Assembly: GCA_026390695.1 (NCBI GenBank)
Contig: JAPLFL010000072.1
Span: 1 to 48,917 of the forward strand
Direction: 5' to 3'
From: Candidatus Kapaibacterium sp.
GTDB lineage: Bacteria > Bacteroidota > Ignavibacteria > Kapaibacteriales > UBA2268
Length of the DNA stretch: 48,917 bases
Part shown: one piece after another, positions 2,050 to 7,977 of the stretch
How the letters are laid out: every line of letters starts with the position of its first letter
How positions within the stretch are numbered: the first letter of the stretch is position 1
The notes under the pieces: generated by a model
The model's database searches: none
Told to the model about the DNA's origin: nothing
Seen by the model: only the letters and a program-made list of their open reading frames with translations
Made by a program: the position numbers and the translations under genes

Positions 2050-2120
2050 GGAGACGTTTTGCCATTTTATGTGTCATTATGAATAGGGAATGTGCAGTTT
2101 TGAAAAATTTGGAGAAAAAA

Positions 2121-4703
2121 ATGAAAAACTTATTACTTGTTATCACGATGATTGCTTGTGTTAGCGCTTCTAATGCAGCGTTCGACCCTAAAGGTTATTT
2201 CGATTATCTGAAAACTCATAAGGATATGACTTACGAACAATTGTTAGTTGAATATCCTGCAGGTTACTTTATTAAAAGAAATAATATTAAATTCCCAATA
2301 TTTCAATATGCCGATAGTATTGCACAAAAATACAAATTGACAAAAGATGAGCTTTCACAGATAAATCAACAAGGATTTATGGTGACTGAACGGGTTTCTT
2401 ATCCTAATTATTTATCTGCTTTCTATGACATCTGGCAAAAAGATCTGCCAGTCTATATTTCAACCGATGCACTACTGCATTCGCTTCATTATTCCTTCGA
2501 TAGGATTATGATGGATATTGAAGCCACTAAAGAAGAATGGGGGCTTGATCCATCGCCACAAAGTTTAGTGAATCAAGTAAATTTCCTGATTGAATCAATG
2601 TGGAAGCAAATACCTAGTCTTGAGAAACTTTCTGATAATTCGATATATCTTCGTAGTTTGAAGGATTTCGATCTGTATCTGACAGTTGCCAGAAAATTAG
2701 GGGATTATAATGGATATGGAATAATCCCTTATTTTAATTCAAATATCGTTCTATTTGAAGAATTAATCTCTCAAATTCAGAGTCAGCAATATCAAACCGT
2801 GAATTTATTTGCCGAGAACGGCCGTGAATATGATTTCAGTCAGTTTACTGTTCGGGGACATTATACAAAGAATTATTATTTGGAACATTATTTTAAGATG
2901 ATGATCTGGCTTGGCAGAACAGAGCTATATATAGAAAAGCCTTACTCTGAAAATGAAGAATGTAAAGTGAGTGATGATGATGTAAACCGGCAATTGCTCA
3001 TTATTTCTTTTATGGCAGATGCAATTAAAAATGGAAAATTAATTAATCAATATAATCTCATTCAGGATTTATTAACATTTCTAATCGGTGAACAAAATGG
3101 TTGCTCGGTTAATGATGTAATTATTTGTAGGGATAAAATTGGTGTAAAAAATAGTCTTGATCTTATTGATTATGGCCTCAGATTTCAGTTTCAAAAAGAA
3201 CTTTCATCACTTAATTCATCAAAACAACTTTATCAATCGCAAATTTTAGGAACATATCCCGACAATTTAAATCAGGTGAAACCTGCATCAGTCTTTCTAT
3301 TAATTGGTCAGCGCCCTATTATTGACGGTTTTATTACTGCAAATCTTGTTTATGACAGAGTAATTTATCAAAATAAAAAACAATTACGTATGCTGCCAAA
3401 TTCACTTGATGTACTCTTCAGTTTGGGAAATGACGCATCCATTCAGCTTCTTTCTAATGAGATAAACACATTTAATTATTCTACTAATTTAGCTGCTTGC
3501 AGGTATTTGGTATCCTCACTCGATTCAAATTACTGGAATGAATCATTCTATACCTCATGGCTTAATACAATCCGAATTCTAAATCCACCTTCGGACAGAA
3601 GCAAACTACCGGTTTTCATGCAGACTGCAGCATGGCAGCAAAAAAATATGACAACTCAATTAGCCTCTTGGGCTGAACTTCGCCATGATTTTATTTTGTA
3701 TGCAATGCAACCATACACTGCTTCAGTTTATACTTGTTCAAATCCTGATTTCATTATCGAACCGAATCAGGAATTTTATCATAATCTCTTGTTATTATCT
3801 CAAAAGGGTATAGATATAAGTAAAAAATTTAATTTGGATCCGAACATAAAAAGTTATTTTTATAAAATGAAATCAGTTTATCAGACTTTAGATGGAATTT
3901 GTAATAAAATTATATCAAATTCTACACTTACTTTAAGTGAAACAAATTTTGGTAAATCTATTGTTCAATCATCAATTATTAATGGTTGTGCACCCACAAC
4001 AGTTCTGGATGGTTGGTATTTTAGCTTATTCTATGATACTCAACTTAGTATAAGTAATTTAAATAGAGTACAAACAAATATTGTTGCTGACATTCACACT
4101 TCTCCTACCGATTCAATTGGCATTCCCGTCGGTTGGGTCAAACATATCGGGACAGGAGCTGTAAATCTGGCAGTTATCGGTACAAAAAATTATAATGGCG
4201 CTCCTGTTGCATTCGCTGGTCCTGTTTATAGCTTTTATGAATACACAACGAGTAATTTTAAAAGACTGACTGATGAAGAATGGCTCGATATGTTTAAACA
4301 AAAACTTCCTTTGAAGCCAGTTTTTACAAATTTATATCTTAACGACTTGAATGGTAAACATGGTGGAGATCAATTATCACTATGGGCAAAAATAGAAGGA
4401 GTTGAAAATGAGAAGTTGGTGGTTTCTGTTAATCCAATTGTCGTATGTTACCCAAATCCCTTCAGCACATCTTTTAAGATTGCATTTCAGATTCCGCTTC
4501 AATTTTCCGGCAATAATTGCACTATCACAGTAGTTGATATTCAGGGAAATACTGTCGCCAATTTATTATCCGAAAATATGAATTCGGGAAATTATATAAT
4601 TAACTGGGACTTATCAAAAACAAATATCAATTCAGGATCGTATTTTATCAGTTTTAATATTGGAAATTTTATTAAAACCGAAAAGGTACAGTTTGTAAAG
4701 TAA
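2121..4703 (+). CDS. Secreted DUF3160-family protein with T9SS sorting domain
   Basis: The start is the ATG at 2121, preceded by GGAG at 2111-2114. It gives a Sec signal peptide (MKNLLLVITMIACVSASNA), whereas the upstream ATG at 2079 would spoil it. The body carries the DUF3160 hallmark near residues 115-135 (LPVYISTDALLHSLHYSFDR) and later conserved blocks such as the AELRHD region. DUF3160 is a family of large secreted proteins without a proven biochemical role. The last 75 or so residues form a T9SS type A sorting domain: CYPNPFS, a GNTVANLL strand, NSGNYIINWDL, and a terminal KTEKVQFVK strand. The product is therefore expected to cross the outer membrane and be released or attached to the surface. 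At 860 residues it is of typical size. Confidence 0.85.
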   Translation: MKNLLLVITMIACVSASNAAFDPKGYFDYLKTHKDMTYEQLLVEYPAGYFIKRNNIKFPIFQYADSIAQKYKLTKDELSQINQQGFMVTERVSYPNYLSAFYDIWQKDLPVYISTDALLHSLHYSFDRIMMDIEATKEEWGLDPSPQSLVNQVNFLIESMWKQIPSLEKLSDNSIYLRSLKDFDLYLTVARKLGDYNGYGIIPYFNSNIVLFEELISQIQSQQYQTVNLFAENGREYDFSQFTVRGHYTKNYYLEHYFKMMIWLGRTELYIEKPYSENEECKVSDDDVNRQLLIISFMADAIKNGKLINQYNLIQDLLTFLIGEQNGCSVNDVIICRDKIGVKNSLDLIDYGLRFQFQKELSSLNSSKQLYQSQILGTYPDNLNQVKPASVFLLIGQRPIIDGFITANLVYDRVIYQNKKQLRMLPNSLDVLFSLGNDASIQLLSNEINTFNYSTNLAACRYLVSSLDSNYWNESFYTSWLNTIRILNPPSDRSKLPVFMQTAAWQQKNMTTQLASWAELRHDFILYAMQPYTASVYTCSNPDFIIEPNQEFYHNLLLLSQKGIDISKKFNLDPNIKSYFYKMKSVYQTLDGICNKIISNSTLTLSETNFGKSIVQSSIINGCAPTTVLDGWYFSLFYDTQLSISNLNRVQTNIVADIHTSPTDSIGIPVGWVKHIGTGAVNLAVIGTKNYNGAPVAFAGPVYSFYEYTTSNFKRLTDEEWLDMFKQKLPLKPVFTNLYLNDLNGKHGGDQLSLWAKIEGVENEKLVVSVNPIVVCYPNPFSTSFKIAFQIPLQFSGNNCTITVVDIQGNTVANLLSENMNSGNYIINWDLSKTNINSGSYFISFNIGNFIKTEKVQFVK

Positions 4704-4804
4704 TAAACTTAAAGCCCACTTTAAAAGGATCATATTCTATTTTATGTTCTTTTCAGATAAATAGTAGATTGATTCATTATTATAAAATAATAAGTTATCA
4801 GGTT

Positions 4805-5047
4805 GAGAGATAGCGTCATCGGAAAGAGAGATAGCGTCATCGGAAAGAGAGATAGCGTCATCGGAAAGAGAGATAGCGTCATCGGAAAGAGAGATAGCGT
4901 CATCGGAAGCGTCATCGGAAAGAGAGATAGCGTCATCGGAAAGAGAGATAGCGTCATCGGAAAGAGAGATAGCGTCATCGGAAAGAGAGATAGCGTCATC
5001 GGAAAGAGAGATAGCGTCATCGGAAAGAGAGATAGCGTCATCGGAAG
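4805..5047. repeat. 21-bp tandem repeat array (11 full copies and one 12-bp partial copy)
   Basis: The unit is 21 bp, begins gagagatagcgtcatcgg and ends in aaa. Five copies are followed by a copy cut to 12 bp and then six more copies; the last one ends in aag and is followed by a decayed gagagataac. Copies are identical by eye, which implies recent amplification or homogenisation. The unit length is a multiple of three, so both strands can be read (KRDSVIG on plus, MTLSLFP on minus), and even the 9-bp loss keeps the frame. No start with a ribosome-binding site supports translation. It lies just downstream of the DUF3160 gene. Confidence 0.95.
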
Positions 5048-5482
5048 GAGAGATAACTCTAATAAACTACTTTGTTAACATAAAAACTCTCTTTATTGAT
5101 GTAAATTCATCTCCTTCTATGGTAATCACTGTTATTTCTATGATATTCTATTTATTCGATGTTCCGGTTTCCTTTTTATATGATACTTATTTTTTATGAG
5201 TTTACAATATTTTTCTATTAAATATCTCTTCAGTTCAATCTTTTTTAATCAATTTTATATCATCTATAAAAAATCTTTTTCTTGCTAATCAAAAATCAAG
5301 CATTTTTAAAACCTGTTTGATTTCTAAAATCGTTTCACTAATAATTATTTTCTCTAATTTTATTATTAATTATTCTTTTACTAATAATGAAAAGGATCAT
5401 TTGCTTGCCGCTTCCGTTTCTTTTTCTACATTTATCGGTGGTTATTATTATGATTCTCCGAATTCGATCGGTCAAGAAGTTT

Positions 5483-5606
5483 ATATCATTTCCTATTTCA
5501 GAAAAGTAAAATCAAGCTCAGACGAGGACGTCTAAGCTACTATAAATCAAAGTAGAACAGACGTCCTCGTCTGTTTTATCGATTAATTTCAAATAGGAAA
5601 TGATAT
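5483..5606. repeat. Nested-palindrome element 1
   Basis: Outer inverted arms of 16 bp (atatcatttcctattt at 5483-5498 and its complement at 5591-5606) enclose a GC-rich hairpin with 15-bp perfect arms (cagacgaggacgtct at 5519-5533 and its complement at 5559-5573). The 25-nt loop holds a further 5-bp stem (ctact/agtag), and TTTT follows the hairpin. The element is flanked by a TAT repeat (5482-5484 and 5604-5606) and interrupts an otherwise continuous coding frame. The hairpin core recurs at 19309-19357. Confidence 0.8.
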
Positions 5607-5741
5607 TACTCGGAAATATTTAGAATTGAAAGGGAAAATTTTTCGAAGGAAATCAATCTGCGTAAAGAGAATCCGGGAAAATTTTTTATAAAATTCAGGA
5701 TAAATGACGAAGGAACAGAGAAGGAAATGAATATTGAGAGG

Positions 5742-5937
5742 TAAATTTGAATAAACCCAAATATTTCATTAAGATTTAACGTAATTGAAATATTATAAGC
5801 TAATAAAGAGCTTTCTTAAATCTCCCCTGCCCCTCTTTTGCGGGTGAGTGGAATTTAGTTAAATCCTCCTTTGAAAAAGGAGGTAGGGGGATTTTCTCTT
5901 GCCTAATGAAATATTTGGGATAAAAATAAATTTGAAT
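5742..5937. mobile_element. Element 2: MITE-like palindromic element with 11-bp flanking direct repeat
   Basis: The 11-bp direct repeat taaatttgaat occurs at 5742-5752 and 5927-5937. Just inside it are perfect 16-bp terminal inverted repeats (cccaaatatttcatta at 5756-5771, complement at 5904-5919). The interior has an imperfect C-rich/G-rich inverted repeat (5818-5839 against 5875-5896) that ends in a compact hairpin (cctcctt/aaggagg, 5864-5882). It has no coding capacity. The arrangement of direct repeat, terminal inverted repeat and palindromic core is that of a non-autonomous miniature element; mobility is inferred. Confidence 0.6.
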
Positions 5938-6036
5938 GTAAGAAGACAGTCACTGAATGAAGAATCATCATCCGGTGACGCGTTTGAGATTTACTATTCC
6001 GCTGGATTAAGATGTTTAATCAGGAAAGATTTAGCA

Positions 6037-7977
6037 TCAGTTCTTCACTTTTATTTTAATTGATCTGTTAAGAAAACGTCCTTGTGGAGTCGATTCATCT
6101 GCTTTTTGTTGTTCCTGAAGCATTTCAAATTTAAATTTGCCTTTTGCTATGGATTCAATATACTGTTTAGTATTAGCTGCGCGTTCTTTTGCAAGAATTA
6201 TATTGCGGCTTTCTGCTCCTAAAGCATCGGATGAACCTGTCAAAAGTAAAGTGGCGCCTAAAGGTAATTTTTTTGATAATTGACTGAGTAATTCTTTATT
6301 ATCATCGGAAAGTACGCTGCTATTGTAATCAAATCGAAGTATTGCATCAAAATTTGTCAGATTTAATTCAAAGACTTTTTTTGTTAGTTTACTAATATCG
6401 ATACTGTCAAGAAGTTTGGTTTCAATTGAACTGTTCCCAAGATCAACACGATAAGGCAAATTAATATTTTCATTAGTCAATCTGAATTTCACAGGCAAAG
6501 AAAATGTACCTTTCACTGAGCTTGTAATTGGTTTTGAGCTGATGCTGGAATTAATCGTAAGTTCACTTGAATTTTTTATGTTTCCGAAATCCACATCAAC
6601 AATTAAATTTCCGTCTAATTCAGCATAACGTTGTAAATCGACAAATTCCTGTAATGGTGCATTTTTTACGATAATATCAACTCTTTGGTTTTCGTAAATA
6701 CTTTCTTTAAATTCGGATGAAGACGGGTTCGAGGGAGTAAGCAATGCCTTTGTTATAATTTTATCCTTTGGAACTCCGAGAGAAGTCAATACTTCCTTAA
6801 CAGCATTTGCTCTTTCCTGAGAAAGAATTATACTTCCATCTTCATATTTGCCGGAACTTGCTCCTATTAAAGTAAATTGAGCTTTTGGATTATTCTGTGC
6901 GATTAAAGCAAGCCGTGTGAATAAATATTTATGCAATTCAACGGGATTTCCAGAAAAGAAATTTGTAAAATCGTTTTTGTTTTTTATATAAAAAGGAGGA
7001 ATTTCTGACTTTCCGGCATCGAAAAACACAGCATTAACTAAAGGAACAGTGGCTAACAATTCATTGCCAGTTTGTAGAGTTCCTTGATATATTGATTTAT
7101 TAATATTTACGTAAGGTTTAGGTTTCGGTGGAATCGGATCAATTTTGACAATAATCGGAGGCGGGGGAGCTAAAACAGGTATTATCTCAGGTTCAGGGCG
7201 CTGTTCAAGTCCGAACCTAATACCAAGTTCGAGTCTGATAGCATATTCTGACCAATCGACATCAATGGCAACATTATTAAAATTGTAATCAAAAATTAAT
7301 TGCTGAGTAAAATAAGTTGATGTCCCTATTTTTAATAAATTTTCAAAACCCATGCTTAAACCGATTGCTGGAATTGCAATAGATCTGATATCACCAGAAG
7401 CAATAACTGCATTTCTTGTTTTGATATTTTTAATTGTATCTATAAAATAAGCATTATCCGGTTGAATAATACTATAATTTTGAACAAATGAATGTGTAAC
7501 AGGCAATCCAAAGCGCAAACCAGCCATAAATCGGAAGGGATAGCCTTGCTTCCATTCGGTCAGGATATATCTGATCTGGGGTGTTAATTCAAAATAATTT
7601 AGTGTAATATCTAATGAATTTCTAAATCTTGAATCTGCGAAGTTATAATTTATTGGAATTCTCGAAGGTTCGCTAATATCTACACTTAAATTTCCACTTC
7701 GATTAATATATGCCAAATCAATACCAAAGTGCATTTTTTCAGCAATTAATGTTTCATAACCAAGTAGTGCACTATAACCAAAGCCGCCGCCATTCTCAAA
7801 TATTTTACATTCTTTGCACCCTTGAAATTTGGCAAATGATGAGGAGTAATAATTATATAATCCACCGAAGTTAGCTCTCAAAGCATATTTCTCAAATTCA
7901 AATGTCTTTTCAGCAAATAAGTTTGTGCTTAAACAAATAAAGATTACTAACAAATATTTTAAATTATTTTTTTTCAT
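6037..7977 (-). CDS. OmpA-family outer-membrane protein with two OmpA-like domains
   Basis: Predicted outer-membrane protein that ties the outer membrane to peptidoglycan. A signal peptide (MKKNNLKYLLVIFICLSTNLFA) is followed by a beta-barrel-like region to about residue 255, then a proline-rich linker (PVLAPPPPIIVKIDPIPPKP). Next come two OmpA_C-type segments, at about residues 310-430 (ILSQERANAVKEVL) and about 545-646 (RFDYNSSVLSDDN, with ILAKERAANTKQYI). A strand-rich module lies between them. Two OmpA-like segments in one chain are less usual than one. The start ATG at 7977 has AGGA just upstream. It sits 23 nt downstream of smc on the same strand and may be co-transcribed or have its own promoter. 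Confidence 0.85.
   Translation of the reverse strand: MKKNNLKYLLVIFICLSTNLFAEKTFEFEKYALRANFGGLYNYYSSSFAKFQGCKECKIFENGGGFGYSALLGYETLIAEKMHFGIDLAYINRSGNLSVDISEPSRIPINYNFADSRFRNSLDITLNYFELTPQIRYILTEWKQGYPFRFMAGLRFGLPVTHSFVQNYSIIQPDNAYFIDTIKNIKTRNAVIASGDIRSIAIPAIGLSMGFENLLKIGTSTYFTQQLIFDYNFNNVAIDVDWSEYAIRLELGIRFGLEQRPEPEIIPVLAPPPPIIVKIDPIPPKPKPYVNINKSIYQGTLQTGNELLATVPLVNAVFFDAGKSEIPPFYIKNKNDFTNFFSGNPVELHKYLFTRLALIAQNNPKAQFTLIGASSGKYEDGSIILSQERANAVKEVLTSLGVPKDKIITKALLTPSNPSSSEFKESIYENQRVDIIVKNAPLQEFVDLQRYAELDGNLIVDVDFGNIKNSSELTINSSISSKPITSSVKGTFSLPVKFRLTNENINLPYRVDLGNSSIETKLLDSIDISKLTKKVFELNLTNFDAILRFDYNSSVLSDDNKELLSQLSKKLPLGATLLLTGSSDALGAESRNIILAKERAANTKQYIESIAKGKFKFEMLQEQQKADESTPQGRFLNRSIKIKVKN

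Follow-up and report, generated by a model that had tools for sequence, protein, structure and literature searches.

The window analysed here, the whole stretch of 48,917 nucleotides, corresponds to contig C4 in a draft genome of Candidatus Kapaibacterium sp. that totals 4.63 Mb in 129 contigs (own genome, G000). Two palindromic elements, element 1 and element 2, sit between two convergent genes: a DUF3160 gene (2079-4703), whose product carries a Por secretion tail, and one of the OmpA family on the minus strand (6037-7977). The features found between these genes are collected in Table 1.

Table 1. Features of the interval between the DUF3160 and OmpA-family genes (window coordinates)
Feature	Position	Strand	Basis or remark
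21-bp tandem repeat array	4805-5055		Tandem Repeats Finder; neighbour, outside both elements
Split ORF, 5' part	5317-5483	+	TTG start, hydrophobic N-terminus; codon score 0.156 per codon over 5317-5481
Element 1 left target duplication, TTA	5481-5483		Comparison of copies and flanks
Element 1, 122-bp, MITE-like, 15-bp perfect terminal inverted repeats, inner hairpin	5484-5605		15 near-full-length genome copies; hairpin
Element 1 right target duplication, TTA	5606-5608		Comparison of copies and flanks
Split ORF, 3' part, to TAA 5742-5744	5609-5744	+	Codon score 0.143 per codon, joined frame
Element 2 left target duplication, ATAAA	5751-5755		Comparison of copies and flanks
Element 2, 164-bp, MITE-like, 16-bp perfect terminal inverted repeats	5756-5919		13 genome copies compared; hairpin
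Element 2 right target duplication, ATAAA	5920-5924		Comparison of copies and flanks
Third coding-like piece (piece 3)	5926-6063	+	End antisense to OmpA gene (OmpA stop 6037-6039); candidate member of split frame only

Ends, copies and target duplications of the two elements

Element 1 has perfect 16-nt inverted arms at 5483-5498 and 5591-5606, and its outer bases are TATCATTTCC at the start and GGAAATGATA at the end. In element 2 the perfect 16-nt arms lie at 5756-5771 and 5904-5919; the element begins CCCAAATATTTCATTA, and its other end is the complement of CCCAAATATTTCATTA. The hairpin of element 1 is strong both as DNA (z -10.6) and as RNA (z -10.1), with 0 of 200 shuffles folding equally well in each case, and none of 200 shuffles folded as well as the element 2 hairpin did as RNA (z -5.7). 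No frame of at least 40 amino acids lies wholly within either element.

Searches against the own genome reveal that both elements are dispersed through it. The comparison for element 1 comprised 15 near-full-length copies, excluding those on contigs C71, C53 and C61 (split by element 2); that for element 2 comprised 13, excluding shorter or rearranged ones at C75, C80, C59, C117, C65 and others. In both families, the sequence identity among the compared copies ends at the same bases. Identical 3-bp duplications, TTA or TAA, flank element 1 at 12 of 15 copies (42/45 bases), compared with a mean of 6.6 when the right ends were permuted (P = 0.003). At element 2, identical 5-bp AT-rich duplications are present at 12 of 13 copies (64/65 bases; permuted mean 1.7), and at none of the 13 do the flanks match at 6 to 9 bp. 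Exact TWATATCRTTTCCT ends, termed type-1 ends, number 127 in the own genome and 0 in a reversed control; among the matches listed, matching duplications accompany 26 of 28 facing TWATATCRTTTCCT pairs less than 500 bp apart, pairs that overlap partly with the 15 compared copies. On one strand of contig C52 (83374-83507, in L169), five exact type-1 ends, each with a duplication (TAATATCATTTCCT), form a series with 24-bp spacing and one gap.

An earlier, sequence-only reading of this stretch had proposed that two non-coding palindromic elements with target duplications were inserted here, and the copies, sharp ends and identical duplications support this well. Its cut for element 1, 5485-5606 between two TAT copies, does rejoin the frame, but lies one base off: the true element is 5484-5605 with a TTA duplication, and the true joint is one residue shorter. 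For element 2 it had taken an 11-bp repeat as the target duplication, in conflict with the 5 bp seen at all but one copy.

The same observations bear on the view that the palindromes are REP-like or regulatory hairpins, such as terminators or small RNAs, which never transposed. The folds are indeed strong and the positions mainly intergenic, as this view would have it. However, it is contradicted by the sharply defined ends and by duplications whose length is fixed and specific to each family, the elements are nested in one another, and a search of Rfam over 4700-6100 gave no match at E up to 0.1; such an origin is thus very improbable, although the palindromes may have a secondary regulatory role. 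REP and BIME sequences are extragenic palindromes tied to a RAYT (Y1) transposase and lack a target duplication, whereas target duplications are present here.

Both elements have the features of MITEs: 122 and 164 bp without a transposase gene, inverted repeats, duplications and dispersed copies. Bacterial MITEs, as part of PMC10969869 describes them, are likewise short, without a transposase gene, and have terminal inverted repeats, target duplications, many copies and hairpins; in contrast to that description, no parent element was found here and one end-set holds several inner sequences. The 5-bp AT-rich duplications of element 2 resemble those of the Tn3-derived TIMEs, whose inverted repeats, in an excerpt of PMC4133298, are 38 bp long and related to those of Tn3; the 16-bp perfect repeats of element 2, beginning CCC, set it apart from that account by their length. 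Among the matches listed in a literature search, neither element family is described. Elements 1 and 2 are new families of an already known kind.

The reading frame across element 1

Removal of element 1 and one TTA (125 bp) reopens a frame of 100 codons, from TTG at 5317 to its TAA; stop to stop, the open frame at the same empty site has 139 codons. The 125 bp are no multiple of 3, and with the element in place the frame stops inside it. Palindromic elements of about 150 bp inside reading frames are also known from Rickettsia. In the portion of PMC10969869 that treats them they stay in frame and are translated, whereas insertion of element 1 causes a frameshift and introduces a stop.

A length of 139 codons was reached by 0.07% of 3000 Markov-1 resamples. 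A control on random "intergenic" points of the window was uninformative, with 28% spanning at least 110 codons because unlisted genes were included; resampling was therefore relied on instead. Codon usage was scored with a model built on 30 long frames of the window, in which 45-codon gene stretches score 0.162 per codon (SD 0.114), intergenic stretches -0.10 (SD 0.16; 90th percentile 0.12, 95th 0.19) and wrong frames -0.16 (SD 0.14). Both halves of the split frame are gene-like by this measure (Table 1), but the whole 139-codon frame scores only 0.067, and the second piece scores 0.125 in another frame that contains 5 stops. The codon evidence for the split frame is modest.

The rebuilt protein matches no Pfam family. 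Among 40 relatives it had no convincing match (10 of the 40 genomes at E up to 1, the own genome included; best non-own match E 0.004). A search of 123 genomes of the order also gave no homologue: 3 had matches at E up to 0.01, one of them the own genome, and the two others (E 0.0016 and 0.004) lay inside frames of 893 and 1189 codons. At 29 loci of OmpA homologues, the best E values among 499 frames were 0.27 for pieces 1 and 2, 0.54 for piece 3 and 0.30 for all, and no intact allele without the elements was present. Since the OmpA homologues at these loci are 38-45% identical and, among the matches listed, their neighbours differ, the missing allele is weak evidence. So is the missing homologue, because no second genome of the genus was among those searched; for the same reason, the failure so far to match the pieces to any one protein is a weak test of the earlier claim that they form one. 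An OmpA query against the genome contigs gave 55 stretches that fit a pattern, none of them confirmed.

These results leave room for the alternative, a real possibility somewhat short of even, that the split frame is no gene and is open by chance, element 1 having inserted into AT-rich DNA between genes, behind a minisatellite in decay. Consistent with chance are the rejoined protein's lack of a homologue, TTG as the sole start codon, and the 21-bp array with its residual periodicity in 5056-5316 (z 3.4). The other copies are mostly intergenic as well, and with some 45 elements scanned for such frames, finding a long one is less unexpected than it would be in one test alone. Against chance stand the length attained by so few resamples, the gene-like codon scores of both halves and the 21-bp periodicity within the frame itself, which is not significant (z 1.3). 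A minisatellite origin of the split frame was considered and rejected, as the 21-bp signal dies away by about position 5225. The broken frame probably encodes a protein, though an orphan one; that it is a gene is plausible, not proven.

Among the 14 further copies of element 1, the longest frame over the empty site has 99 codons. A wider scan of 30 type-1 end pairings with perfect duplications, in which L017 was entered twice with different ends and short-flank sites were dropped, found two frames of at least 100 codons, that of the window and an RHS-like frame of 142. For element 2, frames of more than 100 codons span the empty site at 4 of 13 copies: two of them (L007 and L015) run through tandem repeats, a third (L010) does so in part, and the fourth (L030) matches PF13354 (E 1.4e-38). 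Therefore, insertion into or at genes occurs, but rarely.

Two of these sites can be described further. At L075 (1096-1425, contig C41 of the own genome), a type-1 element interrupts the 142-codon RHS-like frame, whose family was judged by eye. At L030 (1-741, minus strand, contig C34), a copy of element 2 lies at the start of the beta-lactamase-family frame. The present start codon of that frame is within the element 2 end, so that this copy supplies a gene's start.

The sequence-only reading had gone further and placed both elements in one gene for an envelope protein of about 145 residues with a barrel-like C-terminus, broken by both insertions, a version that would include later stop and frame mutations. 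Pieces 2 and 3 do share a frame once element 2 and one ATAAA are removed, a one-in-three chance. However, TAA (5742-5744) and TGA (5748-5750) remain in that frame, so piece 3 joins only with unsupported edits, among them the proposed correction of GAGAG to GAG. The codon usage of piece 3 is ambiguous (0.019 per codon), its last part (6037-6063) is complementary to the final codons of the OmpA gene, and no homologue of the product was found in the sets searched. The larger gene is accordingly quite improbable. Because the TAA precedes element 2, the rejoined frame ends before it, and element 1 is the only one of the two within the frame; element 2 is inserted at ATAAA, six bases behind the stop. 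The earlier reading was acute in observing two insertions and overreached in building one larger gene on them.

In the window, element 1 departs from its family consensus at 1 site, with 0 private changes; element 2 departs from its own at 10, of which 4 are private. Element 2 would by this measure be the older, which suggests that it came first and that element 1 is recent; subfamilies could mimic such an age difference.

The explanation we favour, and consider likely, is that two MITEs inserted between the DUF3160 and OmpA genes and that element 1 broke the frame of about 100 codons. Two different non-autonomous, IS-derived families would have entered this interval, element 2 into ATAAA past the stop of the frame and element 1, apparently the younger, into TTA within it, breaking the frame by frameshift and stop. 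Transposases acting in trans probably mobilised both, each recognising the terminal repeats of its element and making a staggered cut, of 3 bp (TWA) for element 1 and of 5 bp for element 2.

The TWA duplications, we presume, point to relatives of IS5/Harbinger for element 1. The single IS5-type transposase found (NF033581) has ends TGAAAC(A/C)TCTGAAAAAT, unlike those of element 1. Among the matches listed in this draft assembly, no autonomous partner occurs at exact type-1 ends, and Pfam profiles for two transposase families gave 3 matches at 2 loci for PF01609 and 0 for PF13586, none with element ends. High-copy elements are presumably often lost from draft assemblies.

Distribution, nesting and possible exchange of cores

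Within the family, 5 of 54 genomes have matches to element 1, which run end to end in the own genome and, at 71%, once in G014 (contig C35). A further, more diverged candidate lies on C47 of G014 (judged by eye), and core or end fragments occur in G043, G044 and G002. Element 2 likewise has matches in 5 of 54 genomes, end to end in the own genome only, with inner parts in G014 and G021 and short matches in G007 and G015. The weak DNA matches in G002, G007 and G015 were judged to be chance, and no transposase is nearby. Exact type-1 ends number 1 forward and 1 reverse in G014 (control 1), 1 in G043 (control 1) and 0 in G021 (control 1). The core pattern fit 6 stretches of the genome contigs, with about 4 estimated by chance; searches of plasmids with element 1 and of phages with element 2 gave nothing of use.

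In the own genome, one set of element ends can enclose a variety of inner sequences, some of them nested. Type-1 ends also enclose a second core, TGTCATTCCTGCG..., likewise beside TWA, and the element 1 core is found without element 1 ends. Inserts within type-2 ends range from 49 to 348 bp, and some contain whole elements of other types. Among the matches listed are 7 non-standard type-2 pairs, 3 with identical 5-bp duplications and 4, including the 49-bp one, without. In an 800-kb sample, clusters of the TCATTCC core number 19, and flanking inverted repeats, of three kinds, were detectable at 4 of them; of 4 clusters of the CAGACG core, 3 have repeats, 2 of which are type-1 ends; and 9 clusters of the CCCCCTTTGAAAAAGGGGG core have none, under a filter that might overlook cores sitting off-centre, as in element 2.

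These findings invite the tentative idea, which we consider doubtful, of modular and nested elements. Palindromic cores that disperse independently would be interchangeable among a few end-sets (TATCRTTTCCT with TWA duplications, CCCARATWTTTCATTA with 5-bp duplications, and CTCAAAAGCC-type ends), and element families with no relation to one another would trade them. Element 2 may moreover favour sites near 21-bp minisatellites. As part of this idea, the outward-reading ends of element 2 might offer a ready start codon (ATGAAATATTTGGG) able to cap a gene.

The two families also cluster. Counting partial copies, 4 of 18 element 1 copies lie less than 500 bp from one of 15 element 2 copies, compared with an expected 0.43 if all are confined to the roughly 13% of DNA that is intergenic (P 0.0009). 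The window locus, which holds a 21-bp minisatellite too, is one such island of clustered elements.

Nesting takes several forms. Element 2 occurs within element 1, an element-2-like copy encloses element 1, and type-2 ends surround type-1 or other elements. The sites are L013 (about 1441-1733), L003 and L034, L171 (940-1223) and L071 (1223-1469).

Tandem arrays with a 21-bp period, their units unrelated, are found at 6 of 13 element 2 copies at a distance of 217-304 bp, or 38-303 bp when arrays are merged (L007, L010, L012, L014, L015 and L026). In long intergenic gaps, 6.5% of points are as close to such an array (P 9e-5, for a comparison chosen after seeing the data). By contrast, none of 10 type-1 elements in the sample is near a 21-bp array. 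Two points weaken this association: 3 of 15 element 1 copies also have an array within 700 bp, all of them adjoining copies of element 2, and in the window 700 bp separate the array from element 2. In the 800-kb sample (L175-L214), 21 bp is the commonest tandem period of at least 10 bp (41 rows), followed by 42 bp (13), and the 21-bp units are unrelated between loci. An association of an intergenic MITE with a minisatellite, of 23-nt units, is described in part of PMC4596501 for BrickBuilt of Porphyromonas gingivalis; compared with that description, the 21-bp arrays here are outside the element, beside some copies of element 2, and differ in sequence between loci.

What emerges is a genome, without a parent element found, that carries two well-delimited MITE families, element 1 with ends TATCATTTCCT and TWA duplications and element 2 with ends CCCAAATATTTCATTA and 5-bp duplications, and one locus at which a history of insertion can be read. 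The nesting, together with the sharing of cores between end-sets, would let one ask whether the cores move by themselves or are captured by elements.
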